64,000 nucleotides of DNA from Halosolutus halophilus (GTDB lineage Archaea > Halobacteriota > Halobacteria > Halobacteriales > Natrialbaceae), in the NCBI RefSeq assembly GCF_022869805.1, contig NZ_CP094974.1, positions 2,046,001 through 2,110,000 of the forward strand. Direction: 5' to 3'. This document shows, piece after piece, positions 38,163-62,988 of this stretch. The first letter of the stretch is position 1, and every line of letters starts with the position of its first letter. A program made the position numbers and the translations under genes. The notes under the pieces were generated by a model that was not told where the DNA came from, searched no databases, and saw only the letters and a list, made by a program, of their open reading frames with translations.

Positions 38163-38164
38163 CG

Positions 38165-38866: not shown

Positions 38867-38946
38867 ACGTCTCACCCAGGTATAAGATACGTTTTCTCGA
38901 GCTAGGCAGTCTATTACCATTATAGAAGAAACTGAGCTAAGACCGC

Positions 38947-44417: not shown

Positions 44418-44577
44418 AACCAATTAGGTACTAAGTCTAATACGTGCCACAGGTCCTTTCGGGAAGCCGTCTACTCAGTATGCACCCAGAGTTACCGAAT
44501 CTGGCCACCTCATTTTCACACTCGGATTTGAATGAAGAAATCGTGTTGCCGACTACTGTTCTACTGGATGCAGTGAG

Positions 44578-45507: not shown

Positions 45508-46497
45508 ATGGCCCCAGCACGGCTCCGCTCAATCGTGCCGATGTTCGGCGGAGCAACAAGCTACATCGAGACACTCGATGCCATTCTTGCGTACGTCGAC
45601 GAACAACACCCCACGACGGACGAACTCGTCGGCTGGCATCGAGGAAGTTTCGCCCGTGTCTCAAGTCGAGACTCGATTATGCGCCGTGTCGAGTATCTCG
45701 AGGATGTCGGCTTTCTCACTGCCGAGAATGGCGTCTGGACACTCGGTCCCGAAGGCAAGCGATACGTCGCAGACCGCTCGACTGAAACCCTCCTCGAGAT
45801 CATGTGCCGACGAAACGTCGGCCTTCGAAGCCTGCTCTATGCGCTTTTGGTCGGTCCAATGACGATCGACGAAATCGGCCGCCAACAACTCGAAACACAC
45901 CCCGAACTCGGCTGGAACCCTGAGAACCCGGATATGGCACTCCAGCGCGTAAACTGGCTGCGAAGCCTTGAGCTCGTCCAGCAAGACGGCGACCAGTATC
46001 GGCTCACTGCCGAGGGGAGACAGTTCACCGACAATGCCGTCGAGACCTGGGCAGAGCCCGCTGCATTGACTGCATCCGATACGACTGATCCAATGACTGC
46101 GGGCACTTACGAGACGACAGTCAACGCACGAGCAATCGATCCAGAGTTCCGAGCGGCCGCACTGGCGAGGTTTGACCAGACTTGTCCGGTCTCAGGGGTA
46201 GACCATCCAGGGCTACTGGACGTCGCGCACGTCCTCCCGTGGAGCGACTATCCGGAGTACCGGGCGGACTTATCGAACGTACTGACACTCAGCAAGACCC
46301 ATCACGCAGCATTCGATCGGGAGCTATTTACCATTGATCAGGACTACCGAGTGCGAGTGAACCCGGCATTCGAGACAGAAAGCGAATTGCTGCGACGGAC
46401 AATCCTTGACCGTGCTGGCGAGCAAGTGCCGCTGCCCGACGGGGCCGTTGATCCTGAGTACGTTGCTCAGCACAACGAGATACTCGAGTGGGTGTGA
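45508..46497 (+). CDS. HNH endonuclease with N-terminal winged helices (intact copy)
   Basis: This is a 329-aa protein starting at ATG 45508. Residues ~15-90 and ~100-190 are two winged-helix segments (YIETLDAILAYVDEQHPTTD; SLLYALLVGPMTIDEIGRQQ). Residues ~210-310 are an HNH nuclease of the HNH_2 type: CPVSGVDHPGLLDVAHVLPW supplies the catalytic His, and NVLTLSKTHHAAFDREL supplies Asn and the His pair. The Cys pairs that would hold a structural zinc are absent. It looks like a restriction endonuclease with a sequence- or state-reading N-terminus. Three decayed copies in the same orientation lie at 49890-50372, 55287-55500 and 61628-61790. Confidence 0.82.
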   Translation: MAPARLRSIVPMFGGATSYIETLDAILAYVDEQHPTTDELVGWHRGSFARVSSRDSIMRRVEYLEDVGFLTAENGVWTLGPEGKRYVADRSTETLLEIMCRRNVGLRSLLYALLVGPMTIDEIGRQQLETHPELGWNPENPDMALQRVNWLRSLELVQQDGDQYRLTAEGRQFTDNAVETWAEPAALTASDTTDPMTAGTYETTVNARAIDPEFRAAALARFDQTCPVSGVDHPGLLDVAHVLPWSDYPEYRADLSNVLTLSKTHHAAFDRELFTIDQDYRVRVNPAFETESELLRRTILDRAGEQVPLPDGAVDPEYVAQHNEILEWV

Positions 46498-46600
46498 CAG
46501 TTCATAGATTCGTCTTTGGGCAGTAAGATATCGGTCTCAGTCCGTTTCACAAGATCTGAGTAAGTACTATTGCTTCATCTTGGGTGAAACATTCCTCAGA

Positions 46601-49600
46601 TTAGCTATCTGGTTCGTCAGCTAACCCAACCTCTCTGAGCGCCTGCTCCAGTTTATCATTTGTAGTGCCAGTATTCGATGATTTTGTGGCAGTATCATCG
46701 TCAGTTGTGTCCTCGAGACCAGCGGCAGATAGTGCTGCGTCGAGGCTTCCGAAAACCTCCTCATACACTTGTGGGTGGTTGTCACCGACTGAGTAAAGCA
46801 GTCTTCTGTTGACGTTGGACCAGTTCTTGCTGAGGCGTTTCAATTCAGCAATCAATTCGTCCCGCCGATTGTGGTCAGAGTCATTCTTCGAAGCCTCTTC
46901 ATGCCCTTCCTGGTCAGTCTGTGTGGCTCCTTCCTGCTCTTCTTCTTGGAGATTTGCTGTGGAGAGTGCTGCTTGTTGGCAGGCTTCAACAAGTTGCTCG
47001 GCTTCTGCAGTCGCTCGAATCCGAACCGTTTCGTCACGATAAACATACTCATCCAGAGTTGAGGAGAGATAGCGGTGGACGTCCTTGCCAGAATCGAGAT
47101 CCCACCGAGATGCCAGTTCACCGTTACTCGTCGGTTGCATCGCAACAATATCGCTGAGCCGGGTAAGATCACGTGGGGGAAGCTCGTGGTCGGTCTCCTC
47201 CACCAGCTCCTCATCAGGTTCGGTAGAAAGAGGACTAGGGAGGTCAGGAGAGACTCGTGATTCCGTCTCCCAGTCAAAAAACGCGTCACGGGCATCTGCA
47301 TATTCAATAAACGAACGAAGAATGTTATCAGGCTCTGTCTTTGCACCGATGCGGTCGACATTACCTACAACTACGAGTTTCGATTTCGGCCGTGTTGCCG
47401 CGACGTTGAATCGGTTCTGGTCTCCAGCGAACTTTAGACTCCCCGGGTCAGTGCCGACGACACTGTAGATGATAACATCTCGCTCGCGGCCTTGGAAACC
47501 ATCGACTGTCTCGACATCGACGGCATACTCTGTTTCGAGTGCATCGCGGATTACGTTTCGCTGCCCGCGATACGGTGTTATAATACCGAGCTGGTCGGTG
47601 TCGAGACCATAATCTTGGATGAGTCGAGCAACCAGCCGGACACAGACATCGGCCTCTTGTTTGTTAAACGGACTTCCGTAGCGTTTGCGCCAGCCCTGTT
47701 CCTCGCTGGTAGCAACCATCGCTAGTGGCTCGTCCAGGACCTCATCTACGAACATCTCGTCCGAGCGCAGATGAGATGGTGTTTCGATCGTTCCATCACC
47801 GGTATGCGCCAGCTCGATATTCGAGTCGTAGACTCGGTCACGCGCAAACCCGATGATCGGAGCGACGGACCGATAGTGTGTTCGGAGCCAAGCATCTTCA
47901 CCGAAGCGGTCGCGGAGGAGATTAAAGATACTCGACCCCGCCGGCGGACGTCCGGAGTCGGTATTGACGCTCTTCAGGACTGGGAGAAGTTGCTTGTGAT
48001 CACCGACGACAATCCACTTCTTTGCAGTTACCATCGCCAGCAAGCCCATCGGGGTACTGATCTGGCTCGCTTCATCGATGATGACGGTATCAAACTCGAC
48101 CTGTGCGAGGCCGCCGAGCTGAGAACGGACTAAGGTCGCCCCAGTAATATCGGCCTGTCTGACTGATGTGGCCTCCGCTTCATCCCACAACTCTCGCAAT
48201 TCTCGCTGCAGCGTGGTTAGCTCTTCCCGCTCTGCCGCAATCTCCGCGTCTATCTCGGCTTCTCTATTGGAGTCACGAAGCCGATGATCGACTTCGCGGT
48301 TCAGGTATCCCTTGTGTTCTTCGAGGGCGCCAATTCGCTCTTGTTGATCACTGATTGCCGATTTGAGCTCATCAACTCGGTCGAGCAACCCGCTCACCGA
48401 TGACGTCTCGCTATCAACCACTTTTTCCAACATCAATTCCTTCGCTTCTGTTGAGACCTTTTCAGGCCGCCCAACCCGAACGACCCTATGTGGGTTATCA
48501 CCAGCTAGGTTCTCAATGACGTTGTCGACAGCAATATTCGTGTGAGATGTTACTAGTACGCGTTCTCCCCGATTCGCAAGTTCATCTGCTGCTTTCGCAA
48601 TTACTTCGGTTTTGCCAGTTCCAGGTGGGCCAACGACGGTATACAGGTCCCCCGGACTCATACCGAGAACGTGATTGACAACTTCGCGCTGTGAGTCATT
48701 AAGCGGGAAACTGTCGGCGCCAACACTCTCCAACTGCGTGTTCTGCTCAGGGGTTATTTGCGGTAGTGAGTCACGATTCAGTGTCTTGAGTAAGCGTTTC
48801 GAGTTCTGTACGAGGCGTTCGTGATCCGGAGAAGATGTAGCAAGACCTTCAAAATCACGTTGCGCCTCAAGCAGCCACGATTGTTGCAGGACCGTAGTGA
48901 TATGTGATTCTGCACTCCACAACTCAACCGACATTCCCTCTGCGAGCGGGAGTGATCCCATCTCTCCGTAGTCGACGTGTACTTCGCTCTCAGTGGTGTT
49001 GATGACTCTTCCTAGCAGGAGCCGCTGATCATTTGTCGTATAGCCGACCTGACTTCCATCTTCGATCCAGTCTGGAGGGCGATGTGCCGTTCCAACAATA
49101 ACGAACTTCGAACTAGGATTGTGTTCAGTAATCTCACCAGAGAGACGCTGGTTGTAGCGATCTTGTCGTTCTCGTTTCGCCTCGTCGTGAACGATCTGCG
49201 GCCACCCACCAAGGAGTGTCCCGCAGTTAGAACAGTACAGCAGCGGTGCAGACTCGAACGAATTTCCGCACTGATCACAATAGAGATTATCCTCGTTCTT
49301 ATTGGAGACAGCGCTCTCTAAAGCATCTCGAATCACTGCATCGTTATTTTCCAGAAACTTGGTTGCAGTCGCTACTGGCTCCTCAATCTCAGATACACTG
49401 GAAAGCATATCGAGCCGTTCACTAATCTGATCTGTAATCTCCTTCCCAAGGAATCGACTGCCGGACTCAAATTTTCGTTGTGCACCAGCTAAGGTATAGT
49501 GAACGATTGCCGCGACAGCGGCGTCGGATCCAAACTGTTCAGCAAACGCAGTGACACCAGCCCGTGGACAGTCAGTGATCCAATCCTGAGTTCGTCGGGC

Positions 49601-49744
49601 AGACGCAGGGAACTCAAATTCCAACTGCGGTGCTGCACGGGATACGACATATGGAGCATCGATCAACAGATCGACCAATCGGACTGTGGCCGGATCCAGT
49701 CCCAACTCACGGCCACAGTGTGCATGGACATACCATTCAGTCAT
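46601..49744 (-). CDS. SF1 (Dna2/UPF1-like) helicase with zinc ribbon
   Basis: This is a 1047-aa protein. ATG 49744 (MTEWYVHAHCGRELGLDPAT) is chosen over a further upstream in-frame ATG. A zinc ribbon with CDQCGNS and YCSNCGTLLGG lies near 158. The helicase has Walker A VVGPPGTGKTEVIAKA (~370), IIDEASQI (~553), GDHKQLLPV, a TVDGFQGRERDVIIYSVVG block (~748) and NVAATRPKSKLVVVGN (~788), all typical of UPF1/Dna2-type superfamily 1B helicases. A long coiled coil interrupts the first lobe after Walker A (~440-530). The C-terminal ~200 residues hold two short repeats of unknown function. A nuclease domain is not evident, so it may work with the HNH enzyme that faces it tail to tail. Confidence 0.82.
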   Translation of the reverse strand: MTEWYVHAHCGRELGLDPATVRLVDLLIDAPYVVSRAAPQLEFEFPASARRTQDWITDCPRAGVTAFAEQFGSDAAVAAIVHYTLAGAQRKFESGSRFLGKEITDQISERLDMLSSVSEIEEPVATATKFLENNDAVIRDALESAVSNKNEDNLYCDQCGNSFESAPLLYCSNCGTLLGGWPQIVHDEAKRERQDRYNQRLSGEITEHNPSSKFVIVGTAHRPPDWIEDGSQVGYTTNDQRLLLGRVINTTESEVHVDYGEMGSLPLAEGMSVELWSAESHITTVLQQSWLLEAQRDFEGLATSSPDHERLVQNSKRLLKTLNRDSLPQITPEQNTQLESVGADSFPLNDSQREVVNHVLGMSPGDLYTVVGPPGTGKTEVIAKAADELANRGERVLVTSHTNIAVDNVIENLAGDNPHRVVRVGRPEKVSTEAKELMLEKVVDSETSSVSGLLDRVDELKSAISDQQERIGALEEHKGYLNREVDHRLRDSNREAEIDAEIAAEREELTTLQRELRELWDEAEATSVRQADITGATLVRSQLGGLAQVEFDTVIIDEASQISTPMGLLAMVTAKKWIVVGDHKQLLPVLKSVNTDSGRPPAGSSIFNLLRDRFGEDAWLRTHYRSVAPIIGFARDRVYDSNIELAHTGDGTIETPSHLRSDEMFVDEVLDEPLAMVATSEEQGWRKRYGSPFNKQEADVCVRLVARLIQDYGLDTDQLGIITPYRGQRNVIRDALETEYAVDVETVDGFQGRERDVIIYSVVGTDPGSLKFAGDQNRFNVAATRPKSKLVVVGNVDRIGAKTEPDNILRSFIEYADARDAFFDWETESRVSPDLPSPLSTEPDEELVEETDHELPPRDLTRLSDIVAMQPTSNGELASRWDLDSGKDVHRYLSSTLDEYVYRDETVRIRATAEAEQLVEACQQAALSTANLQEEEQEGATQTDQEGHEEASKNDSDHNRRDELIAELKRLSKNWSNVNRRLLYSVGDNHPQVYEEVFGSLDAALSAAGLEDTTDDDTATKSSNTGTTNDKLEQALREVGLADEPDS

Positions 49745-49889
49745 TCGATAGAATCGTAATGAATCATGCCGATATATTAATTTTCTCATATATGTGTGGG
49801 TTAGGCTATCGCGCAAACAACTCACTGCGTTTCGCGGAACTACTTATATAGATCAATTATTCTGATTTGGTTGTCAACCTCAAGAGGTT

Positions 49890-50372
49890 ATTTGAGATTA
49901 TATGTCAACGAACTGCTGTCTGCGAGATCTGCTCTATACGGTCTTGATAGTTCGATGACGAGCGACGAAATCGGCTGCCAACAACTCGATACACATCCCG
50001 AACTCGGTTAGAACCCAAAGAACCCTGACATGGCACTCCAGCGCGTGAACTGGCTGCGAAGCCTCAGGTTCGTTCAGAAGGACGGCGACCAGTATCGGGT
50101 CACTGACGAGGTTCACCGACGGCGCTGTTGAGTACGGGGCAGATTCTGCTGCATCGGCTGTGTCTGGTATAGTGGATCCGATGACCGCAGGAACATATGA
50201 GACGACGGTCGACGCACGAGCCATCGATCAAGAGTATCGATTCCAGGTGAATCCGGATTTCGAAACGGAGAGTGATCTGCTGCAGCAGACGATCCTCGAT
50301 CAGGCTGGAGAGCGACTTACGTTACTTGATGAAAACGTCGTCACGGACTATGGCAGGATAACGTGTCGATAA
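49890..50372 (+). pseudogene. Decayed copy 2 of the HNH endonuclease gene
   Basis: Runs parallel to the intact HNH gene from its codon ~97 to its end. Long stretches are nearly identical in DNA (for example around 50029-50059, ATGGCACTCCAGCGCG). An in-frame stop, several indels and the loss of the nuclease core inactivate it. The core is missing between AIDQEYR and FQVNPDFETE: 66 codons are absent compared with the intact gene. The last part still reads MTAGTYETTVDARAID and TILDQAGERLTLL. Confidence 0.85.
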
Positions 50373-50552
50373 ACGTCGGCCAATAATTTCATGAGCTAGT
50401 AATCAAGTGAGTGAAATAGCGGGGTCGGTCCAATTCCGCTTGAAGGACATCTTCATGGCATCAGTATCATCGGATGATGACTCATCAAATAATGAATCTA
50501 CAAATTCACGATTAAACTTTCACGCTGAGCGAGTCGGGGTGATGAAAACTTA

Positions 50553-53500
50553 ATGACAACGCGTCTCTTACACACGACAGATACTTTCTTAGACCGCAAA
50601 AATATGGGTCGGAAATCCCGTCTGAAAGATTATCTAGCTGCATTTAAACAAGCGATCGCACACGCACTTCGGAAAAACGTCGACGGCGTGATCCACACGG
50701 GCGATCTGTTCTGGACGAGAGCCCCCTCGGAGGAGATCGTTGAAGAGTGCAAAAAACCTCTGAGGCGGCTGGCGAAGGCGGGAATTCCGTTTTGGCTGGT
50801 GTACGGGGATCGGGATGACAAGCTAGCGACCGGCCTTCTGGATGAGTTTCAAGAAGAGGGATTGCTTCGGCGATTGACCTCAGAGTGGCACACCATCGGC
50901 GACGTCTCGGTTTATGGCATCGACGCGACGACCGATCTGAGATCGGCCAGTCACCCAGAGGTCAAGCCACCGCGACCGCGGATCGCTTGTGCGCATGAAG
51001 ACGTCGCGGTTTCCACCCTCAACAGGGTCCTGGGGTCGGAAGTCGATGCGTTGCTTCTCGGCGATCAAGAAGGCTCGGTCAACCGCATGGAATCCGGCTG
51101 CCGAATTCTCTCTCCCGGCAGCCCCGAACGAGTGATAGGAAAGTGGACGACCGAAACCGGAGCCGGGACCAGCGCGTGGAGCCAGCCGCGCCGCGTCAAC
51201 GTCTACACAATCTCCGAACAATCGATCTCCGTCGAATCCAGTGTGATCGATGCTCGGGATTACGAGGGAATCGAAATCCGGGTCGATGCACAAACGACCA
51301 TGCAGGACGTCAAGCGACGACTGGATCAGTTCGATCTGAAAGAAAAGGCGGTCTTGCTGATCCTGAGAGGCGAGAACGGCCCAGCAAACCCGTCGCGAGA
51401 TGCGATTCAAGACGAACTATCGGCCCGGGCTGAAATTGCTCGTGTCTACGACCGACGGGACGATGTCGATGCTTCTGATGGTACGTCGGGAGGATCCGAT
51501 GCAACGACCGGGGCACCTCTTGACGCGGATGGCGGAACGAATTCCACTCCTGCCGACGGTACAAGGACAATCAATCCCGTCGAGATTACGCGCGACGATA
51601 TCGACAAACTCGATGTCGCTGACGGGACCTCTCCCGACTCCTCACATCTCGCGGTCAAATTCAGGCGGTTGCAGGCGCAGATCGAGACCCTCTTCCGGAA
51701 TGCCCCGTGGTTCGAGTCGTTCGATTGGTCCGGCGACCCGGGCTCGCCGTACGTCGAACCTCCCGACTCTGACGAATCGGAGTATCTCTGGTTGGGTCTG
51801 TATCACGACTCGTACCGCTCACTCGGCACGCAGTCCAGTGCGCTTCAGTTCGAGTTCGGGATCGATACGGATTCCAGTCGCGGGTTCTTCGGCCGCAGCG
51901 TAATCTGTGGCCTGTATCTCGGACCCTGGGTGAAGGATTCGGTCGCTGGGGACGTCGCCGATCGTCTCTGGGCACATCACGCCAATGTCGCCTCTTTTTT
52001 GACCACCCAGTCGGACTACGTCCTCATCACTGGAGACAAAACGTGGCAGACACTTACCCCCGATATCGTCACGAGACGAGCCGATCACCTTGCCCAGGGA
52101 TTCGCTCTCACCCTCGCTCTTTCGCTGGAAGACCTCTACGCATGCGACGACCTGGTTGAACTCGCGGGACAGGCAATCCTGGAAGTGCTGCCGCTGTACT
52201 ACAAACTCGCCGGAGTGGACAGTCCCGACCATATCCCGAACATGGAATCGTTTCGGGAAGACCTCGGGGTTCACGAGGACTCGACCCGCGATGCGGAGGG
52301 CAGGTCAATCCCACAACCGACCGCAACCGATGTCGACGTCAATGTGGAAGCGACGGTCGAATCGATCGAAGCACACTCGTCGATACTCGATTCTGATGAT
52401 ATTGAAAGATCCCTTGATAATCTCGCCGAGCGAGGCGCGTCGCGTGATGAGGCGCTGCAGTACGTTCGACAATATGCCTTCGACATGGAACGCGGCGACG
52501 GGCTCTACGCAATTAATGGGCTGGGTCCGGTCGCCGGCTACACACTTGCCCAGGCCGGAATCACGACCCCTGAGGAACTGGCGTCAACCTCGCTCGAGGA
52601 GGTGAAGGCGATCGACGGACTGCTCGAGGACCACGCGCAAAGAATCCTGGAAAACGCCCGAAGCGGGGAGCTGACACCGGCAGCCACGGGAGCGAACGAC
52701 GGTTCATCGGCTGCCACAGCCGACGCCGCGTCTGAATCGGACGTCACCGCCGCTTCCAAGGAGACCGGTAGCGAGACCCAGAAAGTGCGCGAGTCACGGA
52801 CCCGTTCTGCTGATACATCCCGGTCACGTGCGACGGACGATCTGCCGGTCGTCACCCACGACGGTCAAGAGATCTCGGCAAATCAATTGTCCGAATGTTA
52901 CGAAGCGATCCGCAGCGTCCGGAAGGTCCTTTCGACAGTCATGCAGCTCCCGGGAACCGCTATCGACCCCGACGATTTGACTGATTCCTGCGTTCAGTAC
53001 TACGTGCTCCTCGAGGCGTGCATCAGTGGCCATTCGGAGCTTGAGCTGTCAGGATACGGTCAGCAGCATCGGGATCGACTCTCGTTCAGAACCGATGACT
53101 ATCGCCATGCGTTCGGCGATGGCGACTGGGTGACCGAGTATCACACCATCGATGTGGCACCGTATCGGGAAGAGACGCAAGACTGGCTCGAGGAAAAGAC
53201 GTATCTCGAGGACACACAGCGATTCGTTCGGCCGATCCCGCCGGGGATCGAGCAGCCGCTCCCGGAGAGCGTCGGCTCAGTTGACGACCTCCGCTACGCG
53301 CTTGAGGTATTAAGCGAGTTCCCCGCCTATCCTCCCCTGCCGACGGAGAACGGAGCCTCCGACCGTACAATACCGGTCGAAACCCTCTATACATCATTGT
53401 TCGGCCAAGTGGATGGTGCGCAGTTGATCGACGTTGAGACGCTTTCCGACCTAGGTTCGGCAAGTCCTGAACCGATCACGGGACCGGTGGCTGACGCGAC

Positions 53501-54182
53501 GCCGACATCAAAGGCAGACGCCGAGTCAGTACTGCTCGATTACGGCAAACTCACGCACCTGTATAAACAGGTCGAACCCCCGACTCAGTCGCCTGTTCGA
53601 CGTCTGCTGCCCGTCTTCGGCCTCGACTGGTACCGTTCGGCATCCGGATCATTCGACGCCCTGCAAGACCTCGCGAAGCACGGTAAGGACGACCCGGTTT
53701 CGATCTTCCGGCCACGGCTTCGAGATATGGTGCATCGTCGATTCCTGCGCGATCGCTGGGAGTACGATTACATCACGGTCGTCCCGAGCCACGAGGCCGG
53801 GAGTTTGAGCCCGCAACTCGTCGAACTGGCCCAGGACTCCGTCCTCGAAACATCGACCCTCTACTCACCGCTGCTGGAACGAACGGAAACGACGGAACGG
53901 CAGCGCGAGAAATCGCGCGAGGGACGCAAGGAGGTCGCACGAAATCCGGAGGCAACATTGCGAGCCCGCGCCTCACTCGATGGAGAAACCGTGATTCTAT
54001 TCGACGATATCTGCACTTCCGGGAACTCGCTACTGGCGGGAGCGTACCTGCTGCGTGAAGCCGGGGCCGATCGCGTGGTCGGTCTGACCCTCGGGTTTAC
54101 ACCCGGCGAGGACGAGATGCAGACGAAAGAAATCAAGAAGCCCGATGCCTACGCGTCGGATATCATCGCGGGGTTAGAATGA
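50553..54182 (+). CDS. Mre11-like / HhH / phosphoribosyltransferase fusion
   Basis: This is a 1209-aa protein, ATG 50553. Residues 1-~190 resemble an Mre11/SbcD metallophosphoesterase (LLHTTDTFLDRKNMG, VIHTGDLFWTRAP, VYGDRDDK, LLLGDQEGSVNR), but the canonical metal ligands DxH, GNHD and GHxH are altered, so catalysis is doubtful. Residues ~365-520 resemble the DNA-binding part of McrB-like proteins (FESFDWSGDPGSPYVEPPDS, then FGRSVICGLYLGPW). A helix-hairpin-helix (LYAINGLGPVAGYTLAQAGI) lies at ~650-705. The C-terminus is a ComF-type phosphoribosyltransferase with the PRPP loop VILFDDICTSGNSL at ~1147-1160. The stop overlaps the start of a DprA gene, so the two form a module. The pair is best read as a defence or DNA-uptake-control system. 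Confidence 0.72.
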   Translation: MTTRLLHTTDTFLDRKNMGRKSRLKDYLAAFKQAIAHALRKNVDGVIHTGDLFWTRAPSEEIVEECKKPLRRLAKAGIPFWLVYGDRDDKLATGLLDEFQEEGLLRRLTSEWHTIGDVSVYGIDATTDLRSASHPEVKPPRPRIACAHEDVAVSTLNRVLGSEVDALLLGDQEGSVNRMESGCRILSPGSPERVIGKWTTETGAGTSAWSQPRRVNVYTISEQSISVESSVIDARDYEGIEIRVDAQTTMQDVKRRLDQFDLKEKAVLLILRGENGPANPSRDAIQDELSARAEIARVYDRRDDVDASDGTSGGSDATTGAPLDADGGTNSTPADGTRTINPVEITRDDIDKLDVADGTSPDSSHLAVKFRRLQAQIETLFRNAPWFESFDWSGDPGSPYVEPPDSDESEYLWLGLYHDSYRSLGTQSSALQFEFGIDTDSSRGFFGRSVICGLYLGPWVKDSVAGDVADRLWAHHANVASFLTTQSDYVLITGDKTWQTLTPDIVTRRADHLAQGFALTLALSLEDLYACDDLVELAGQAILEVLPLYYKLAGVDSPDHIPNMESFREDLGVHEDSTRDAEGRSIPQPTATDVDVNVEATVESIEAHSSILDSDDIERSLDNLAERGASRDEALQYVRQYAFDMERGDGLYAINGLGPVAGYTLAQAGITTPEELASTSLEEVKAIDGLLEDHAQRILENARSGELTPAATGANDGSSAATADAASESDVTAASKETGSETQKVRESRTRSADTSRSRATDDLPVVTHDGQEISANQLSECYEAIRSVRKVLSTVMQLPGTAIDPDDLTDSCVQYYVLLEACISGHSELELSGYGQQHRDRLSFRTDDYRHAFGDGDWVTEYHTIDVAPYREETQDWLEEKTYLEDTQRFVRPIPPGIEQPLPESVGSVDDLRYALEVLSEFPAYPPLPTENGASDRTIPVETLYTSLFGQVDGAQLIDVETLSDLGSASPEPITGPVADATPTSKADAESVLLDYGKLTHLYKQVEPPTQSPVRRLLPVFGLDWYRSASGSFDALQDLAKHGKDDPVSIFRPRLRDMVHRRFLRDRWEYDYITVVPSHEAGSLSPQLVELAQDSVLETSTLYSPLLERTETTERQREKSREGRKEVARNPEATLRARASLDGETVILFDDICTSGNSLLAGAYLLREAGADRVVGLTLGFTPGEDEMQTKEIKKPDAYASDIIAGLE

Positions 54183-55147
54183 TGGAAATAGACGAGGTCG
54201 CCGCTCTGGTCGGGTTGACGGATATCGACGGGATCGGTGATAAGCGCGCCCTCGAATTGTATCGAGCGGTCGAGACGTTGGAGGAACTCTGGTCGAGCCC
54301 GTTAGCCGCATTCGACGACTTTCACTACGTGGATGAAGAAACCCACGCGCAGCTACGGAGTTTGCCGGAGACCATCGACGACTACTGCGAGCGGTTCGAT
54401 CGCTACAGGAACGATGGAACCGAGATCATCGGCATCGACGACAACCGGTATCCGGCGGTATTACGCCGTAATCATGCACCGTTCATCCTCTATGCGAGGG
54501 GAGATGTCGATCTGTTGGATGGACCAGCAGTGAGCGTCTCTGGATCGCGCGAGACCAACGAAGCCGGGCAACAATGGATCCGTGGGATCGCGCGCGAGCT
54601 GGCCGCTAAAGGGTACACAATAGTCAGCGGCGGTGCTCGAGGCGCGGATACGGCGGCTCACGAAGGTGCCCTCGATGCGACTGGCGAAACGATTGTCGTC
54701 CTCGGGACGGGCGTAGATACCCCGTATCCGGAAGAGAACGAGGCTCTGTTTTCCGATATCGTCGATGCGGGTGGCCTTCTACTCTCACACCGGCCACCGG
54801 ACGCAGGACCGACTCGTCATTCGTTCCTCGACCGCAACCCGACGATTTCTGCGCTGAGTCGCGGGACAATCGTCGTCGCTACCGATGGGACGGGCGGAAC
54901 GATGGCCCAGTATGACATCGCTGTCGAACAGAATCGCCGAATATTCGTTCCCGAAGTGGACCGCGACATACGGCCCGATAACGGCCTTAGAGAGTTGCGA
55001 ACTGCCGAGGCAACAACGGTTGTCTCCTCGACCGCGTCGATCGAAGCCGAACTCGTAGAAGCGACTCCCGGTGACGGGACGGAACCCGGTGATACGGACA
55101 GTTCCGAGGAAGAGGCAAACCAAACGAGTCTGGACGACTGGGGGTGA
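54179..55147 (+). CDS. DprA/Smf-like protein
   Basis: This is a 322-aa protein coupled to the upstream fusion gene (start at 54179, ATG repeated at 54182). The N-terminus is a short helix-hairpin-helix (DIDGIGDKRALELYRAVETL). The DprA Rossmann fold follows. SVSGSRETNEAGQQWI and IVSGGARGADTAAHEGAL match the S-G-x-A-R-G-x-D-x-x-A-H box, and GTGVDTPYPEENEALF and TDGTGGTMAQ complete the pocket. Canonical DprA loads RecA on incoming single-stranded DNA; relatives in defence loci are thought to bind nucleotides. The C-terminal tail ends QTSLDDWG, much like the tail of the NucS at 43590-44417, and resembles a PCNA-binding box. Confidence 0.83.
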   Translation: MMEIDEVAALVGLTDIDGIGDKRALELYRAVETLEELWSSPLAAFDDFHYVDEETHAQLRSLPETIDDYCERFDRYRNDGTEIIGIDDNRYPAVLRRNHAPFILYARGDVDLLDGPAVSVSGSRETNEAGQQWIRGIARELAAKGYTIVSGGARGADTAAHEGALDATGETIVVLGTGVDTPYPEENEALFSDIVDAGGLLLSHRPPDAGPTRHSFLDRNPTISALSRGTIVVATDGTGGTMAQYDIAVEQNRRIFVPEVDRDIRPDNGLRELRTAEATTVVSSTASIEAELVEATPGDGTEPGDTDSSEEEANQTSLDDWG

Positions 55148-55286
55148 TCCTCTCTGGTCGAACTGTTTCCCGTCCGCAACCCATGATTTTACTTAACTGA
55201 TACCGGACAGAGAGGTTGATTTTTGATCGAAGAGAAATGCCGTCAAGACCGGGATCAACACTATCCCGACGGATTTCGACTTGGCG

Positions 55287-55500
55287 GATCCCATGACTTC
55301 AGGACCTACGATACGACGGTTGAAGCGAGAGCCATTGATCCGGAGTTTCGAGTGACTGTTCGGGAGGTTCGATCGAGAGCTATTCACGATCGATCCAGCG
55401 TTCGAGACTGGAAGTGATCTTCTGCGGTGAACGATCCTCGACTGCGCCGGTGAACGATTGCCACTACCGGATGGAGCCGGATCGGATTCCGTAAACTGCT
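55287..55500 (+). pseudogene. Decayed copy 3 of the HNH endonuclease gene
   Basis: The segment begins at the position of TDPMTAGTYETTVNARAID (here MTSGPTIRRLKREPLI in one frame, DTTVEARAIDPEFR in the other). It resumes as FDRELFTIDPAFETGSDLLR-stop-TILDCAGERLPLPDG, so the nuclease core between AIDPEFR and FDREL is missing and a stop lies in the tail. It stands between the DprA gene and the DUF3883 remnant. Confidence 0.78.
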
Positions 55501-55559
55501 ACACCACCTTCACTAGCGGATCGCAAAAGAAGGGTTCAACATCCCTCTTTCGTGGAGAT

Positions 55560-56494
55560 TTACTCTACGTTCAGGTTCATGTATCCGCCTTTGACGACGC
55601 GCTCGAACCCCTGTTCGGCGACCATCGCGTCCAGATCGTCGACCGAGTCGATCACCTGTTCCATTGCCACCGTGCTCTGTGCCGGCCAGTTCGCCGTCCC
55701 CGCCTCGGGAACCGAGACGAGCCGAACGACGTAGGGTGCATCGGAGTCACGAACGAAGGCCTTGCACTGGCGATACTCGTTCGTCGTCAACCGGAACCGG
55801 AACGGCGGTTCGGTTCCGTCGACCGCCTTCACCTCGACGGGAGCGAAGTTGAGGCCGAACGCGCTGTTCGATTGCGTCGACTCGGGGACCGAACGGATCG
55901 ATCACGTCGAAGCCCGGCCCGTGCTCCATCGTGACGTTGACCAACTCGACGAGCGGGTGGGCGGTCAGCAAGCCGTCTTCCTCGATCCACGATCGCCAGT
56001 CCACGATCATCGATTCCGTGAGTCCCTCTGGATCGTCCAGCAGGGGCAGAAGGTTCTCCTCCCAGACGCCGTCGAGATGCCAGCTGTACTCGGCGTTCCG
56101 CTGGTCTCGGTGCAACTGGTTGAAGCCGCTGCGCAGCTGTCGGAGGACGCCGCTCGGATTCTCCTCGAGCCAGCCGGCCGCTCGGCCGAGGACGCTGGCC
56201 ATGACGAACGCCTCGGCATGCTGGCCTTGACCGCGGAACTGTGACCTGCCACCGCCGCCGCCGCGTTGCGATCCGCTCGAGATGTTGAGCGACACATCTC
56301 CGGTTCCCAGGAGGTCGGTCGACTCCGGACCACCGGACGGGACGAAATCCACGGCGCTGTCGGAAAAGACCAACGAGGTGAGATCCGAAAGGACGGGTCC
56401 TTGATGCTCGGCTGCACCGTGATCGGTCCCGGTATCCTCACCGACTGTGCCCACCTCGAATTCTGACGAGACCAGCGAGTGTAGCTACCCACTG
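55560..56494 (-). pseudogene. Truncated, frameshifted DUF3883-containing gene
   Basis: The minus strand reads VGTVGEDTGTDHGAAEHQGP, GQHAEAFVMASVLGRAAGWL, GVWEENLLPLLDDPEGLTES and GPGFDVIDPFGP. After an extra base in a C-run (+ strand 55884-55887) the next frame continues ESTQSNSAFGLNFAPVEVKA and PPFRFRLTTNEYRQCKAFVR to the stop at 55560. The PVEVKA...FRLTTNEY block is a DUF3883 domain, the C-terminal nuclease-like domain of large GHKL/helicase defence proteins. No start is available: the frame is closed by a stop near 56494, so the N-terminal part is gone. It neighbours an intact GHKL-DUF3883 gene on the same strand. Confidence 0.78.
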
Positions 56495-56589
56495 GTATTA
56501 GACGCTCCGCTCTCAGCAGCCCGATGCGGTTAATATGGTCACCGATATTGTGAGAAGGGATGTCCGTCTGTCACGCGGTTGAACTTCTA

Positions 56590-59500
56590 CTACTCCTTTG
56601 ATTGCGTCGCAACAGGGACCTCGAGCACCGGCTCTTCGTCCGTGAACGCGTTGACGTCAACTTGAACGGACTGTGTGACCGTAACTTCGCGTTCGACCTG
56701 CGCGTTTAGCAGTCGGAACGGATTTGGAATCGTTCGAATGTAGGGGTCGGGACTTGTTCGCTTCGAGAGATGGCCGACGACATAGAGGTAGTAGAGTGGC
56801 ATTTCGCGGGCCTGAATCCAATCATTTCGGGCTGTCGTCCACTCGTTCCACGAGACAGATGGCTTACGACGTCGGCACGTCGCCGCCTTGAGCTCGATGA
56901 GTCGATCAGGCTCTTTGGTCTCCGGATTCACCGTCAGTAGATCGAACCCGGGGAAGTGCTCCGGGATTCCCGCCTCCGTTTCCAGCACTTCGAACGCACG
57001 CGCTGCATTCGGATGCTCTCGCGCCGCGTCCACGAGATGCCGTTCATCGGTTCGGAACACGAACTCGCTGGGATCGTCGCAGTCCGGGTGTTCCCTGCGA
57101 AGCCGCGTCGCTTCCCACGCCTCAACGAGGGCGGCGCCCAGATCTTCGACATCGTACTGGGATTGATCACGCCTGCGGTCGCTCGGCGATGTCTCCCGTA
57201 ACGCCGACTCCTCCGAATCGATACCAACTTCTTCAACCGACTCCAGGTCGGCGTCCGACGCCGAATCGATCGCACTTGTCGACGACGGCGTCACTGGGAT
57301 CGGCTCGCCTCCGACTCGAAGCTCCGAGGCGTCGTACAGCTCCGCAGGGGGTGACCGCACATCACTTGCAACTGACTGCTCGGAGGGTTCCGTCTGGCTG
57401 ATTTCCGAGTCGGCCTCCTCTTCGCGCTCGGAAGAATCTCCGTCCTCGCCCTGTCCACCGACCGGCTCGGGCTCTCCGAACTCCCCTCGTGGAGATCGTT
57501 TCTCAGACTCATCGAGCCGCAATCGCTTCTGGCGAATTGCATCCGGCGACGACGGTGCATTCGCATACTGGAGGTACTGGCGACGCTCTTGGTCTGTGGA
57601 GGCCGAAAGCAGAGCATCGATTCCCTCGAATTGCGTCACATCGAGATATGCGCATAATGCGCGGGCCAACAGCTGCCACTGTTCCCGTTCGTGCTCGCGA
57701 TGAACGGCGTACGGGAATCGCTCTTCGACTGCGCCATCTGGTCGTGTTTCGATGTAGAACTCCGTCGTCGTGGTCTTCTTCCGCTCTGTCTCGTCACCGA
57801 TCGGATCGAGCGTGTACGTTACTTGAATCTCCTCGACGACTGTCAGCGAGTTCAGGAACGACCGCATTCTGTCACGGTCACGGTCGATGAGCCGCTGGGA
57901 CGGACGCTCCGCCTCGAGTCGACAGAGGATGTGGGAAGCGCAGGACTTCAGATGGTCGGTAACTGCCCGCGTTCTGTCTTCTCGGGCGGTGATCGGCTCG
58001 CCATCTTCCATGACGGCGGCGGTGAAATCGTGGAGGCCGAAATACTGCCCGAACCGGGCCGATCGCTGCTCTTCGAGAACGAAGAAGGGGAGATCGTCGA
58101 ACGGGTAGTCTGCCCTGACGCTCGGGGAGCGGGCGAAGTAGGCCTCCCGCGCGTCGCAAAATTCGAACGTGCCGCTCACCCGACAGAGCACCGGGCAGTT
58201 CGCGAGTTCGGCGGTCGCATCTTGCCACGCGCTGTCTTCTGGAAGCGGTTCGTCGACCGGCGGCGCGAGATCCTGCACCTGTCTGTAGATCGGCTGAATG
58301 TCGCGGAGCGACTCGGCGATGGTGATATCGCCGGTGCGGCAGACGTCTGCCAGCCCCTCGCACACGGTGCGCGCGTCGACGGGCGTAAACGTCTCCGATG
58401 AGAGATGGCGTCGGATGCCGAGGTCTTCGAGTAGTGGCTGGGCCTCGTACTCGGCCGGATCGAGGCCGCGCTCGAGAATCGGCAGCAAGGACTGCTCGCC
58501 GATGGTGAAGGGAATCGACTGCCGCTGCGGAGGATCCCAAATGGTGGAAGGTTCGACGGCGCCTCGCGAGCTGGGACACCAAGCGTCAGTCTGGAGTTGC
58601 CACAGCCACAGATTCGTCCCGACTTCACGCAGCTCACTGCTGGATTGCGAGCTCGAATTACGTCCCGAAAATCCGCCAACCGAGTGTGTTGCTAGCGTCG
58701 CCACGCGGTGATCGGAGAAGACGGGCTCCCACCACGCGATGAGGTGATCCATCAGGGCTTGCCCGACATCCGTATCCGATCGGGCTTTTCGATGGATCGT
58801 CTCCCAAAACTCGAAGCTGTTTACCTCGTGGATCGAATCGTACTTTTGGCGACCGGCGGACATGCCGTCGAGCGCCGCCTTGAGATGATCGCGGTACGCC
58901 TCCCAGGTGTCCTCGTCGAGGTCGCCGAGAACCGAGGTCCCGTTCGACGGCCGGTCGACGACGCCCTCAGCCACCGTTGCGGAGAACTGGCGCTGTTCGT
59001 CGGGAGCGAAAAACGGTCTGAGGCGAAGGTGCGGTGAGACGCCGATCCAGCGCAGGAACTCAAACCACGCCGACACGTCGATTCCGTCCTCAAGGTCGAA
59101 CCCCTGGTCTCGCAACCGCTCCGCGATGGTTTCGGGGGAGACGAGCATCGGTGCATCGATCTCGGCCTTCTCGAGTAGCCGCTCGACGCTGCGGACGTCG
59201 TCCGAGAGCCAGTCCGTACCGAAGTACACCCGATGGGCCGGACACCACCCCTGGTTTTGGATCGGGACGGGCAGCTGACAGAGTCGATAGAGCGGCTGTG
59301 CGTCGTATCGGTCGCGCAGCGGGAGAGGCGCGTCAGGGTCGGCAGTTTCCTCGCCGAGTTCCCGCAACAGCGCCAGCATGCCGATGTCGATTGTCCCGTC
59401 TCCCCGTTCGGACTGTTGACCTCCGGAGAGCCGTGGAGCGACCGTCGTTCGGACGAGTTCTTCGAACTGGAACGAGTCGGGTCGCCAAACCTGTCTGATG

Positions 59501-61443
59501 ACGCTCTGGCGCGACTCGACCGTCGGCGGTAGCGCCTGGCTGCCGAGCCGACTTCGTGGTCGATACACGTATTCGGTCACGAACCGCACGCCGGGGATGT
59601 CGACGTCGAGTTCCCCGTCTTCTCGCGGGAGGTACAGCTCCGTGTCGTCGGCACGGACGCGGGTCACGGAGCCGTCATCGAACGGGGTGCCGACGGGAAC
59701 GAGCGGCTGGGCCCGAGCGGCGGCGGCAAACGTTTCTTTGGCGTCGTCATCGAGAGGCTCCCACATGGCCGCCACGAGTTCGATGACCGGATCCGTCGCC
59801 GTGCGCTGTGGGCCCGGGGGATACGAGTCAATCGCGAACCAATCGTCCGGCAGCTCCGGAAGCAGCTTCGGCAGGTACTCGATGGGGAACGCCGATGCGC
59901 CGAGCGTTCGAAGAACGTCAGGCACGTGATCGTGCTCTGCGTCGAGCAGCTGAGCCCGCGGAAAGAATCCCGCAATCGAGGTCGTGTCGTCGTCGAGTTC
60001 GACGTGCCGGCCGTCCCAGTGGTCCACGAAATCGACTATCGCCTCTCGGGATTCGTCCAGGATCGAGGGAATGAGGGTCTGCATCGGCATCACGTGCGTC
60101 GTCCCCGTATCGGTGGTGTCGCCGACGGGCACACAGTCGACGTCGGCCATCTCGTCCTGTATGGCGCGAATTAACTCATCTCGGAACGTGTTGTCGTCCC
60201 GGCTGTCGGGGTCGGCCCACGTGGTGAAGTTGAGGCAGGCGAGAAACTCGCTGGCCGTCGTCGCCGTCCGGCGAGCGACGGTGGCGATATCGGAACTGAT
60301 GATGTTTGCAGCCTCGCGGATCAAAAATCGGTTGTAGTCCAGATTGTGTTCCGTAATGTCGATCGATTTGCGGGACAGATTCGAGTCGAACGCGCCGTTA
60401 ACGAGTAGCGGGATCGGCGACCGTTCTTCCGTCGGCAGGAACACGTGGGCCTGGGGATCGTTTCGCACCGGTAGGAGATGCGTGCCGTCGTCTCGGCGGT
60501 CGGCTCGAACTGCGACGCTCACCTGCGTGTGCGCCACATCCCCCCACGTGTTGTTCGAGATGCCAGCCGTGTGTGCCCCGATCTCGACCTCGTCTCGAGT
60601 AAATCGGAGATATCCCACTTCGGTCGGCGTGGCTCCGCGACGGCGGATTTTCACGCTGTCGACGTCCGAAGACACCGCGCCGATGGTGCTGTCGTGCCGA
60701 CCGATCTCCCAGGTCGTCGTCTCGCCATCGATGGCCACCTCGAGGCGATTCAAATTGTTGAGAAAGAGTACCGTCTGTTCGTCGAGTTCAGCGAGCGCGT
60801 TGCGGACGTCTGCGACCGCTTCCTCACGAAGTGGGAAGTAGAACGCCGTCTCGTGCTCAGCCTGAAGCAGCGATTCCACCCGTGATGGACAGCGATCCGG
60901 AGCAAAGGGAAGCCGCATGAGCGGGATCCCCGCGATATCGTCCATTTCCCACTCGTCCAGTTCGGCAATGGCCTCCTCGATCCGCTTGCGGGAGCGGGCT
61001 CGGTCGAACATGAACGAGACATCCGTCGAAAACACGTACGGATGCTCCGTAATCTCGAGCACAGCGCTGAATCCCCGTCCCTTGTGCCCGATCGTCGCTT
61101 TCCGGTCCGCGTCTCGTTTGGTCGTGTCCCCAATGGTGGTCAGGGCCCGTGCATCCTCGTCGTCAACGGGTGACCCGGAATTGGCTACGATGAGATGCGG
61201 GTCCGAGCCGGTCTCCAGCTCAAACCGCGTGACGCACGGATTCTCCGGATCGTCGGTTTTCCCAACCGCGTCGTCCGCGTTTTGGATCAGTTCGTAGGCG
61301 AACCGGCCGTAGTAATTCTCCTCGTTCTCCCCCTCATCGTTGTAGTGCGAGGAGATGTCGTTCGGCATCTCTCGATACGTGTTCAGCCGCGACTCGCGCA
61401 AGTCCCTGACACACGGTCTCTCCGCCAGTATTGTATTCTGCAT
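56590..61443 (-). CDS. Giant GHKL (sacsin-like) ATPase with C-terminal DUF3883
   Basis: This is a 1617-aa protein; ATG 61443 starts MQNTILAERPCVRDLRESRL. Residues ~40-190 are a GHKL/HSP90-type ATPase. The N-box is RFAYELIQNADDAV (48-60), the G1 motif VANSGSPVDDED and the G2 motif IGHKGRGFSAVLEI, the same arrangement as in sacsin. The middle ~1100 residues are mixed and unrecognised. An acidic, Ser/Glu/Asp-rich linker (~1290-1470) precedes a DUF3883-type domain (PDRLIELKAATCRRRK), in which ELK would be the nuclease-like strand. Large GHKL-DUF3883 proteins occur in many prokaryotic defence islands. It may sense invading DNA and cut through the C-terminal domain. Most of the ATPase motif set is intact. 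Confidence 0.8.
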   Translation of the reverse strand: MQNTILAERPCVRDLRESRLNTYREMPNDISSHYNDEGENEENYYGRFAYELIQNADDAVGKTDDPENPCVTRFELETGSDPHLIVANSGSPVDDEDARALTTIGDTTKRDADRKATIGHKGRGFSAVLEITEHPYVFSTDVSFMFDRARSRKRIEEAIAELDEWEMDDIAGIPLMRLPFAPDRCPSRVESLLQAEHETAFYFPLREEAVADVRNALAELDEQTVLFLNNLNRLEVAIDGETTTWEIGRHDSTIGAVSSDVDSVKIRRRGATPTEVGYLRFTRDEVEIGAHTAGISNNTWGDVAHTQVSVAVRADRRDDGTHLLPVRNDPQAHVFLPTEERSPIPLLVNGAFDSNLSRKSIDITEHNLDYNRFLIREAANIISSDIATVARRTATTASEFLACLNFTTWADPDSRDDNTFRDELIRAIQDEMADVDCVPVGDTTDTGTTHVMPMQTLIPSILDESREAIVDFVDHWDGRHVELDDDTTSIAGFFPRAQLLDAEHDHVPDVLRTLGASAFPIEYLPKLLPELPDDWFAIDSYPPGPQRTATDPVIELVAAMWEPLDDDAKETFAAAARAQPLVPVGTPFDDGSVTRVRADDTELYLPREDGELDVDIPGVRFVTEYVYRPRSRLGSQALPPTVESRQSVIRQVWRPDSFQFEELVRTTVAPRLSGGQQSERGDGTIDIGMLALLRELGEETADPDAPLPLRDRYDAQPLYRLCQLPVPIQNQGWCPAHRVYFGTDWLSDDVRSVERLLEKAEIDAPMLVSPETIAERLRDQGFDLEDGIDVSAWFEFLRWIGVSPHLRLRPFFAPDEQRQFSATVAEGVVDRPSNGTSVLGDLDEDTWEAYRDHLKAALDGMSAGRQKYDSIHEVNSFEFWETIHRKARSDTDVGQALMDHLIAWWEPVFSDHRVATLATHSVGGFSGRNSSSQSSSELREVGTNLWLWQLQTDAWCPSSRGAVEPSTIWDPPQRQSIPFTIGEQSLLPILERGLDPAEYEAQPLLEDLGIRRHLSSETFTPVDARTVCEGLADVCRTGDITIAESLRDIQPIYRQVQDLAPPVDEPLPEDSAWQDATAELANCPVLCRVSGTFEFCDAREAYFARSPSVRADYPFDDLPFFVLEEQRSARFGQYFGLHDFTAAVMEDGEPITAREDRTRAVTDHLKSCASHILCRLEAERPSQRLIDRDRDRMRSFLNSLTVVEEIQVTYTLDPIGDETERKKTTTTEFYIETRPDGAVEERFPYAVHREHEREQWQLLARALCAYLDVTQFEGIDALLSASTDQERRQYLQYANAPSSPDAIRQKRLRLDESEKRSPRGEFGEPEPVGGQGEDGDSSEREEEADSEISQTEPSEQSVASDVRSPPAELYDASELRVGGEPIPVTPSSTSAIDSASDADLESVEEVGIDSEESALRETSPSDRRRDQSQYDVEDLGAALVEAWEATRLRREHPDCDDPSEFVFRTDERHLVDAAREHPNAARAFEVLETEAGIPEHFPGFDLLTVNPETKEPDRLIELKAATCRRRKPSVSWNEWTTARNDWIQAREMPLYYLYVVGHLSKRTSPDPYIRTIPNPFRLLNAQVEREVTVTQSVQVDVNAFTDEEPVLEVPVATQSKE

Positions 61444-61627
61444 TGAATATATAATTCTAAGATCAATTGAAAAAGCCACTGGCTATGATTGGCTTCTCGG
61501 TCCAAATCACTCCGGTTCCTCACCGAGAAGTCGGCTAATCTCGGTAGCCGCGGCTTCGCTGTCCACGGCCCCGTCACCGCGACATATGATTTGTACCCCT
61601 GGCCGTCGTGATCCAGGCATCGGATCC
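61444..61627. other. Intergenic stretch upstream of the GHKL gene
   Basis: No gene is visible. The first 30 bases are A+T-rich and supply the probable promoter of the minus-strand GHKL gene. Beyond 61628 the HNH remnant begins. Confidence 0.35.
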
Positions 61628-61790
61628 GACGCTGTTGAGTCCTGGACAGATTCTGCTGCATCGGCTGCGTTTAGTACAACGGATCAGATGACCGCGGGAA
61701 TCTACGATAACAGTTGACGGGCGCTCGATCGCAGAGTTCCGGACGACTGCCTTGGCGATGTTCGACCATATCTGTCCGATCTCAGGTGGT
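61628..61790 (+). pseudogene. Decayed copy 4 of the HNH endonuclease gene
   Basis: Corresponds to the middle of the intact gene (NAVETWAEPAALTASDTTDP to CPVSGVD). ACAGATTCTGCTGCATCGGC is shared with copy 2 at 50141-50160 but for one base. Frames shift after MTAGIYD and resume as RTTALAMFDHICPISGGTEF, then similarity stops before the catalytic histidine. Same orientation as the other copies. Confidence 0.75.
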
Positions 61791-61909
61791 ACTGAATTTT
61801 CGGAATTTTGTGGAATCCGGTGTCGATAAGGGTGTTTCGGATTAACCGAACTCGAGGCAATATGCTATGCCGTGAAGAGTCTTTTAAGTACTTCTTCAGA
61901 AGGGATACT

Positions 61910-62833
61910 TCAACTGACCGATTCAGCATGGGTAACGGCACGCTCAAGGTAATCTAGTTCACGATTGATGAACTGAGATGGTACCCCATATTCCGCCAAC
62001 AGCGCTTCAACAGTATCTAGATTAGGGCTTGGGATCGGTGGATCATTGAGAAGAGCTGAATCTATGCCCTCAAAGCATGGCGGGTCAAGAAACAAATCAC
62101 GTAAGTCATCTACAATTTCCGGCATTGGATCGTCAACACGATCATATACGGCTTCGAGTGATCCATACATTTCAAGTGCATCCATCGCAGATTCGGCACT
62201 TACATTCTGAAGTCCATCGTTGTAGTCCGTTCCGACAAGAATGGCTATATCAACTAGTTCCTTTTGTGAAAACCCGGTTTCTGCCTCAAGCGCCCGCCGA
62301 TTAGCTAACACTTCTGACCCCTGGCCAGTAAAATCCCGTATCTGGACTTCTGCACCAAATAGAAGCGTATCCCAGTCATTTGATAACACAAAATCAGCAT
62401 AACCATCGCGGTTCAAAACGGCTGCGCCCGCTTCTCCGTCGAATGGATAGTCCTTAATAAACGGGATACCAAGAGCATCCAAAATTTTTGCTGTTGATTC
62501 TTTGAAAAACCTGCTTTGTGGATAGGGCGTTGCCTCTGTTGACCGACCTGGATCAGTCATCTGCCGTACCGAACTTGAAAATTCTCCGTCATATATAAAT
62601 ATCAGCGGAATATCAGATCGAATGTATTTCCTGACACCGCTAATCGTACCAATCACATGCGCTACACCATTTCCATTTGAATTTGACCACATGTGTGACG
62701 GAACATTTGATTGAACGCCGGTAGCCATCTTCGTCACCCAATTCAGTGCATCTACAGCACCAACCCGACCAGAGTGCTTGGTAAGTTGTATTTCTGATGT
62801 TGGAGCAAACCGCTCAATCCAGGGAGCGCCCAT
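61910..62833 (-). CDS. FEN1/XPG-type 5' nuclease homologue
   Basis: This is a 307-aa protein. ATG 62833 gives MGAPWIERFAPTSEIQLTKH and GRVGAVDALNWV, the normal FEN opening; the frame upstream is not family-like. Catalytic acidic residues are present: AVDALN, FIYDGEFSS, PFDGEAGAAVLN, LSNDWDTLLFGA and VDIAILVGTDYNDGL. The first Glu of the usual EGEAxAA box is Asp. The helix-hairpin-helix that follows is degenerate (LQNVSAESAMDALEMYGSLE), and no PCNA-binding tail is seen, so it is not the replicative FEN1. It ends upstream of the HNH remnant and is 155 bases after the DUF1998 helicase, whose reading direction it shares. The G+C content looks lower than the rest, pointing to separate acquisition. 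Confidence 0.82.
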   Translation of the reverse strand: MGAPWIERFAPTSEIQLTKHSGRVGAVDALNWVTKMATGVQSNVPSHMWSNSNGNGVAHVIGTISGVRKYIRSDIPLIFIYDGEFSSSVRQMTDPGRSTEATPYPQSRFFKESTAKILDALGIPFIKDYPFDGEAGAAVLNRDGYADFVLSNDWDTLLFGAEVQIRDFTGQGSEVLANRRALEAETGFSQKELVDIAILVGTDYNDGLQNVSAESAMDALEMYGSLEAVYDRVDDPMPEIVDDLRDLFLDPPCFEGIDSALLNDPPIPSPNLDTVEALLAEYGVPSQFINRELDYLERAVTHAESVS

Positions 62834-62988
62834 TGCTTTTGATAACGTTGTCCAGCACACAATCAATATTTTGGCTCTAGTGGATAACTGAATGACGCCG
62901 ATATCAGATGCTAGGACCGGGAGTAATTCCTCCTTCTGTAGCAATAACGCAGTAGCGATCTTCTCACCGATCGAAACTACAGAGTCGG

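Follow-up and report, generated by a model that had tools for sequence, protein, structure and literature searches.

One locus of the haloarchaeon Halosolutus halophilus bears on the question of how defence islands can grow when no integrase builds them. A 64,000-nt stretch of its chromosome (hereafter the window) holds a row of predicted defence modules, between which lie an intact HNH gene and several decayed copies of it, here called scars. An earlier note on this DNA had proposed that recombination at the HNH copies, or insertion of cassettes beside an HNH gene, built the island step by step. We favour, with moderate confidence, a reading in which HNH serves as an anchor where cassettes are exchanged through homology or microhomology, the scars being surplus copies. 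Plain coordinates refer to the window and those headed G000:C1 to the whole chromosome (5,058,678 bp, 5.06 Mb) of the genome under study, G000; f1-f112 and x245 denote island gene families, Gnnn genomes and Lnnn loci in relatives.

The presence of one intact and three decayed HNH copies, all on the + strand, was confirmed by blastn and tblastn (Table 1). Scar 1 matches the intact gene by blastn at 77% over 352 nt (1e-72; tblastn 6e-33), and scar 3 at 71% over 166 nt (4e-15; tblastn 4e-8). Six close family copies, counting those past the window end, are confined to 39 kb of the chromosome, every one on the + strand, and a search of the whole genome detected no close copy outside this cluster. 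Among the island genes checked by self-tblastn, none besides HNH has several dispersed remnants; a small - strand gene next to the intact HNH, at 44578-44967, is present a second time. This 78% DNA copy, at G000:C1 2128986-2129317, corresponds to window 44575-44906 and stands shortly before the far-end HNH remnant. Other boundary repeats at the modules, which the earlier note had named as grounds for abandoning its proposal, were looked for, and no long direct or inverted ones were found at the module edges besides HNH. The regular spacing that it had described does not hold: successive copies lie 4.4, 5.3, 6.3, then 17 and 6 kb apart, because module length sets the distances.

The strongest single line of evidence for HNH as an anchor comes from another genus. 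A copy of the Mre11-PRTase/DprA module (90% protein identity) is found in G362, of genus g14, whose DNA in common with window 50244-55235 extends over 4994 bp at 90.5% identity; this stretch takes in the same HNH 3' tail, likewise degraded and 93.5% identical over 108 nt. The left breakpoint of this homology falls within scar 1 (50244), and its right end, 55235, is the base before scar 2 starts (residue 176). The module and the HNH tail therefore occur together in two genera, and in G000 HNH sequence lies at both ends of the module. A further copy, in G414 (86%), has the genes alone in common, from 50568, and lacks the HNH tail. Within scar 1 the two halves meet at a short similar motif (IDxEYR/IDxDYR), so that what looks like an internal deletion may instead be a joint made by recombination.

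Comparable arrangements were sought in relatives. The HNH family is full-length in about 50 of the 392 genomes of the order and is carried by chromosomes and large plasmids; the congener G389 has an HNH locus at another place plus one remnant, and the congener G392 has none. Both sides of HNH are variable. In the right slot (HNH to f3), examined in 8 clade-1 genomes, common DNA stops at the HNH stop codon and differing modules lie beyond it; in the left slot (f15 to HNH), examined in 5 genomes, homology usually resumes near -40 before the HNH ATG. Each slot holds alternative gene sets, and a near-empty state, between the same conserved neighbours. The slot edges coincide with those of the minimal HNH gene and therefore indicate close packing against HNH, not a site-specific mechanism. 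Common flanking DNA, where HNH locus pairs have any, is found on one side only in 42 of 51 pairs.

HNH clusters recur in G356, G023 and G100, on one strand in each. A 2965-bp direct repeat (86.6%) in G356, running from HNH -40 into the next gene, flanks a 4-kb module; in G100 a three-gene module has an intact HNH at one end and, at the other, a 257-bp HNH 3' remnant 86% identical to that gene; and G023 has an intact HNH and two remnants, each nearer a different lineage. Close HNH pairs are all on the same strand, versus roughly 14 same-strand and 11 opposite-strand cases, in a hand count, for other duplicated island genes. The single counter-example within the family is G235, in which two intact, divergent HNH genes 40 kb apart stand on opposite strands.

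The alleles themselves are mosaic, fitting recombination at HNH copies. The PHI-type (pairwise homoplasy index) test gives z -6.8 in HNH clade 1 and z -3.1 in an 8-row set of clade 2, p being <=0.003 in both; a 13-row set of clade 2 gives p 0.12. Over the first 740 columns the second G000 copy falls into one group with L075, L132 and the first copy (99/97); over the last 250 columns (bp) this grouping is rejected in the approximately unbiased (AU) test at p 0.02, a value that is optimistic in that the groupings were partly picked after viewing identity profiles.

HNH would act as a self-contained one-gene unit, made up of a core promoter from about -40, the coding sequence and the stop codon. 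Since it recurs with similar sequence across many haloarchaeal defence islands, it would offer incoming island DNA a patch of homology, and cassettes would enter or be exchanged via homologous recombination inside HNH or, alternatively, via homology on one side and a microhomology joint on the other. Modules would come to abut HNH directly on either side, while any HNH allele brought in would leave same-strand partial duplicates behind; one copy would be kept, and the surplus copies, because one suffices, would decay to scars at the joints. We infer both this recombination pathway and its direction, gain of modules rather than loss.

Table 1. HNH copies, module genes and variable slots of the island and its relatives. 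Unprefixed positions are window coordinates; signed positions are relative to the HNH ATG; oblique strokes separate the units of a slot.
Feature	Position	Strand	Remarks
Intact HNH gene	45508..46497	+	329 aa; PF13391 HNH_2 E=1.6e-13
HNH scar 1	49894..50351	+	two parts: residues about 95-215 and a 3' tail (about 276-318)
HNH scar 2	about 55238..55480	+	residues 176-215 and 269-314; tblastn 3e-11
HNH scar 3	about 61627..61791 (weak tblastn from 61580)	+	residues about 174-230 only
Near-intact HNH copy past window end	G000:C1 2124534-2125520	+	82%, one TGA
HNH 3' remnant past window end	G000:C1 2130506-2130680	+	whole-genome search
Distant HNH homologue	about G000:C1 2135770-2136162	+	39% identity
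HNH protein: tandem winged helix (wH)	residues about 7-186		AlphaFold model
HNH protein: C-terminal HNH_2	residues 226-277		Pfam
Cassette common to G362	50244..55235	+	HNH 3' tail, Mre11-PRTase and DprA-like genes
Module A, SF1 helicase	46601..49825	-	best PADLOC match MkoA (Mokosh-type)
Mre11-PRTase protein	50553-54182	+	PADLOC ShosT/PsyrT match
DprA-like protein	54179-55147	+	PADLOC ShosA/PsyrA match
Module C, GHKL (sacsin-like) protein	56590..61479	-	1629 aa; best PADLOC match TmtA
Module D, first gene, FEN/XPG nuclease	61910..62944	-	followed by a second - gene
Module D, second gene	from 62989, past window end	-	labelled DUF1998 helicase by the earlier note
Right slot, no insert	HNH / f3		G066, G181; 13-14 bp between stops
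Right slot, variant	HNH / f71 / f3
Right slot, variant	HNH / Mrr / f3
Right slot, variant	HNH / x245 / Mrr / f3
Right slot, variant	HNH / f32-f10 / Mrr / f3		two genomes
Right slot, variant	HNH / f37-f38-f10 / Mrr / f3
Left slot, no insert	f15 / HNH		G287
Left slot, insert f61 f62	-92 to -40		G049
Left slot, insert f82 f28 f42	-138 to -41		G136
Left slot, insert f111 f112	-415 to -364		G035, G113
Second HNH family	G000:C1 2135668-2136165
Second HNH family	L092 10414-11511
Second HNH family	L104 8199-9260
Second HNH family	L109 1-918

The main rival, which we regard as possible though rather doubtful, makes HNH a bystander: a frequent single-gene unit of fast-shuffling islands with no causal part in the joints, whose redundant copies decay and, as pseudogenes, necessarily come to lie between genes. 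Several results side with it or weigh against HNH as the anchor. First, HNH does mark most seams of this island, but 3 of the 6 joints between 46.5 and 78.5 kb are without it, HNH sequence being undetectable at DUF1998/pAgo, pAgo/MBL and AAA/AddAB. Second, about 48 of the 52 full-length loci of the window's family have a single copy, and multi-copy clusters, in 4 of about 50 genomes versus 0 of 24 for the Mrr control, are not significantly enriched. Third, other one-gene units stand at synteny switches as often as HNH does: the one-sided fraction is 0.77 for HNH, 0.81 for f3, 0.92 for f8, 0.83 for f10 and 1.0 for f9, f12, f14, f18 and the second HNH family, against 0-0.56 for operon-interior genes. 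Fourth, the recombination signal is broad across islands and strongest in f3 (z -8.6, with f15 at -4.9 and operon-interior genes less, at -0.1 to -3.7), although z values from differing sample sizes are only roughly comparable. Finally, HNH 3' similarity showed no association with a common downstream module among the 42 one-sided pairs (p 0.52), gain and loss are unpolarised in the slots, the AU test does not reject an in-place duplication of the three G000 copies that can be compared across columns 285-650 (p 0.20), the choice of AU groupings was partly post hoc, and the breakpoints at -40 and at the stop codon are also expected from selection on a minimal gene.

Against a purely passive role stand the HNH tail and module common to two genera, whose homology breaks off on the right exactly where scar 2 starts; the modules of G356 and G100, framed by HNH direct repeats; and the uniform strand of all close HNH pairs, set against a mixed background. 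Recombination at HNH copies has the mosaic alleles, the breakpoints at HNH edges and the G362 tail on its side; the 3'-similarity test showed no association. Likewise, a search of other haloarchaeal islands, which the earlier note had advised, returned HNH slots and clusters at module borders, but other one-gene units were found there equally. Because these units show equal one-sided synteny, HNH is one anchor among several, and the evidence fits a recurring, not sole, anchor for defence-island assembly; any special standing of HNH as the joint marker falls away before f3, f8, f9, f10, f12, f14, f18 and the second HNH family. A general accretion mechanism, as the earlier note had put it, is too strong, given the single HNH in most relatives and the HNH-free joints.

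We think it unlikely that tandem duplication came first, an HNH array arising in this lineage and modules being inserted between the copies afterwards. All G000 copies do fall in one clade of the window's family and share a strand, and the unrejected common origin of three of them would suit such an array. However, the two full G000 copies are rejected as sisters over the whole gene (p 0.04), partly via the foreign 3' tail of one; the intact copy has its nearest relative in a different genus (L132); the copies of G100 and G023 are of different lineages; and the tail of scar 1 is common to G362.

The predicted HNH protein fuses winged helices to an HNH domain with its H-N-H residues, as modification-dependent endonucleases do, and H241, N257 and H266 are invariant among 24 homologues. 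An AlphaFold model built with these homologues has a mean pLDDT (predicted local distance difference test) of 69: the N-terminal part is mostly >80, with blocks at 69-97 across residues 20-180, and the HNH part, at about 60, is poorly modelled. The modelled N-terminal part forms two tandem winged helices, of which 167-172 residues align with the recognition domains of FokI, Nt.BspD6I and BpuJI (Z about 10-11), a score also reached by many unrelated wH proteins, including single-wH ones. The count of two wH domains in the model is therefore firmer than kinship to these enzymes, which likewise have tandem wH recognition domains. Their nucleases are of the PD-(D/E)XK type, not HNH. Weak profile matches connect the protein with a phosphorothioate (PT)-DNA restriction enzyme, the PADLOC HNH entry and other modification-dependent HNH enzymes, and a weak match was obtained with the HNH endonuclease of PDB 6yex (E 0.0045). 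Characterised haloarchaeal wH-HNH enzymes cut DNA containing N6-methyladenine (6mA) (PMC11037411, PMC10101028). The window's family shares with them the wH, the C-terminal HNH and a solitary, haloarchaeal setting, but differs from them in carrying the wH as a tandem pair and in lacking a PUA domain (PMC10101028, PMC11037411). Neighbours in about 57 HNH loci are highly diverse, including BREX, SNF2-PLD, Mrr, Eco57I and MrfA-like genes, and no family, a partner methyltransferase included, is constant. The gene probably encodes a type IV-like restriction enzyme, modification-dependent and solitary.

A promoter-like conserved motif, GGGAAAGGATCATCATC, which contains GATC, lies about 40 bp before the HNH ATG; it is found in many of about 50 HNH loci, e.g., L094, L095 and L103, and may be a core promoter or operator. 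Viral carriage of HNH was considered and is not convincing: viral contigs and phages gave just weak HNH matches, and plasmid matches were mostly to haloarchaeal replicons. The second HNH family shows 39-45% identity across the nuclease part, and its N-terminus matches methyl-directed restriction endonuclease profiles; it recurs in the islands that hold HNH and shares its strand, often near an ADP-ribosylglycohydrolase gene. Co-orientation of both families across genera was dropped as independent evidence, the island maps showing a common backbone order.

Were the nuclease to drive module capture, cutting DNA, whether resident or incoming, at HNH-bearing joints so that partial-homology repair inserts linked defence modules, a restriction enzyme would be the assembly engine of haloarchaeal defence islands; we hold this to be very unlikely. 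Slightly less credible still is a homing-like variant, in which cleavage by HNH of alleles or of incoming DNA, at its own locus or close by, promotes the insertion of linked modules. The predicted nuclease with its FokI/BspD6I/BpuJI-like recognition part, placed exactly at exchange points, would suit such a role, but neither a homing-type target nor a conserved insertion site was seen, the left-slot inserts lie at differing positions, inactive fragments stand at joints too, and the nearest characterised wH-HNH enzymes are restriction enzymes.

Least probable of all is a site-specific integrase or transposase that inserts cassettes beside HNH with the gene end as attachment site: inserts do abut the HNH 3' end, and G100 resembles a 3'-end replacement with a 257-bp repeat, but no recombinase appeared among those slot and island module genes that were scanned by Pfam (a part of all genes), neither constant ends nor a constant target duplication was found, end positions vary, and the G100 repeat shows just 86% identity, with a short overlap at its joint. 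One integrase gene lies upstream of HNH in G100 (L113:14091-15239). Neither an integrase nor an active nuclease found positive evidence here. A tRNA as integration site was also rejected, the sole tRNA of the window being 37 kb away and none lying rightward.

The modules set between the HNH copies are named from PADLOC and Pfam similarities, and their functions are predictions. Module A has a 73% DNA match in G351, there 1.3 kb upstream of an HNH gene. A fixed pairing of module and HNH across genera was considered and is not general, copies of the SF1 (superfamily 1) helicase and of AddAB being mostly without an adjacent HNH. The Module C protein has a weak NO VEIN match at its C-terminus. Rightward beyond the FEN/DUF1998 genes come pAgo, an MBL protein, an AAA-DUF4143 protein and an AddAB-like pair, which directly precedes the second (near-intact) HNH copy. 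At L239 11603-16935, in G396, a close GHKL relative and an SF1 helicase share a strand and are 54 bp apart; the window has both kinds of gene in that order, but with an HNH-bounded cassette between them. That G000 represents an interrupted GHKL-helicase pair is only suggestive, since the helicases are just 58% alike.

Further gene groups were noted in these islands. A + strand group at window 34728-42028 may be a 7-deazaguanine DNA modification system; it includes a BrxC/D-like ATPase and a gene of the TGT family (queuine/archaeosine transglycosylase). In nine genomes of several families a conserved block of five to six genes, f14-f1-f4-f7-f5-f2 (L186, L199, L205, L208, L215), lies left of variable slots; it has almost no Pfam matches and is possibly an undescribed defence system. 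A repeated element of ~1 kb with 185-bp inverted repeats occurs at G000:C1 2141722-2143618, at L132 3624-4686 and 11642-12669, and in L180 and L192; the L132 copies flank an HNH remnant and resemble a composite insertion.

The interest of this island lies in its joints, where scars of a single gene family can be recognised; another genus has one of the cassettes together with its scar, and assembly is therefore traceable base by base. HNH scars offer practical markers for module edges in archaeal islands, and accessory restriction genes, beyond core genes or tRNAs, are indicated as recombination anchors.

Two known systems invite comparison. In the enterobacterial immigration control region (ICR; PMC12707154), restriction and defence cassettes are exchanged between the anchor genes yjiA and yjiN, and the type IV enzymes Mrr and McrBC lie inside the cassettes. 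The likeness consists of variable defence cassettes between conserved anchors, with no mobilising enzyme at the anchors (PMC12707154). The ICR anchors are fixed genes at a single locus, whereas HNH is a restriction-type gene found in many genera, exchanged as mosaic alleles and leaving decayed copies at joints (PMC12707154). The homeocassettes of Halorubrum ezzemoulense are closer in lineage, being haloarchaeal alternative cassettes between the same flanking genes, with homologous recombination in the conserved flanks (PMC11078007); their flanks are core genes within one species, whereas HNH is an accessory defence gene with exchange across genera and families (PMC11078007). The difference from both is that the anchor itself is an accessory restriction-type gene and leaves scars.

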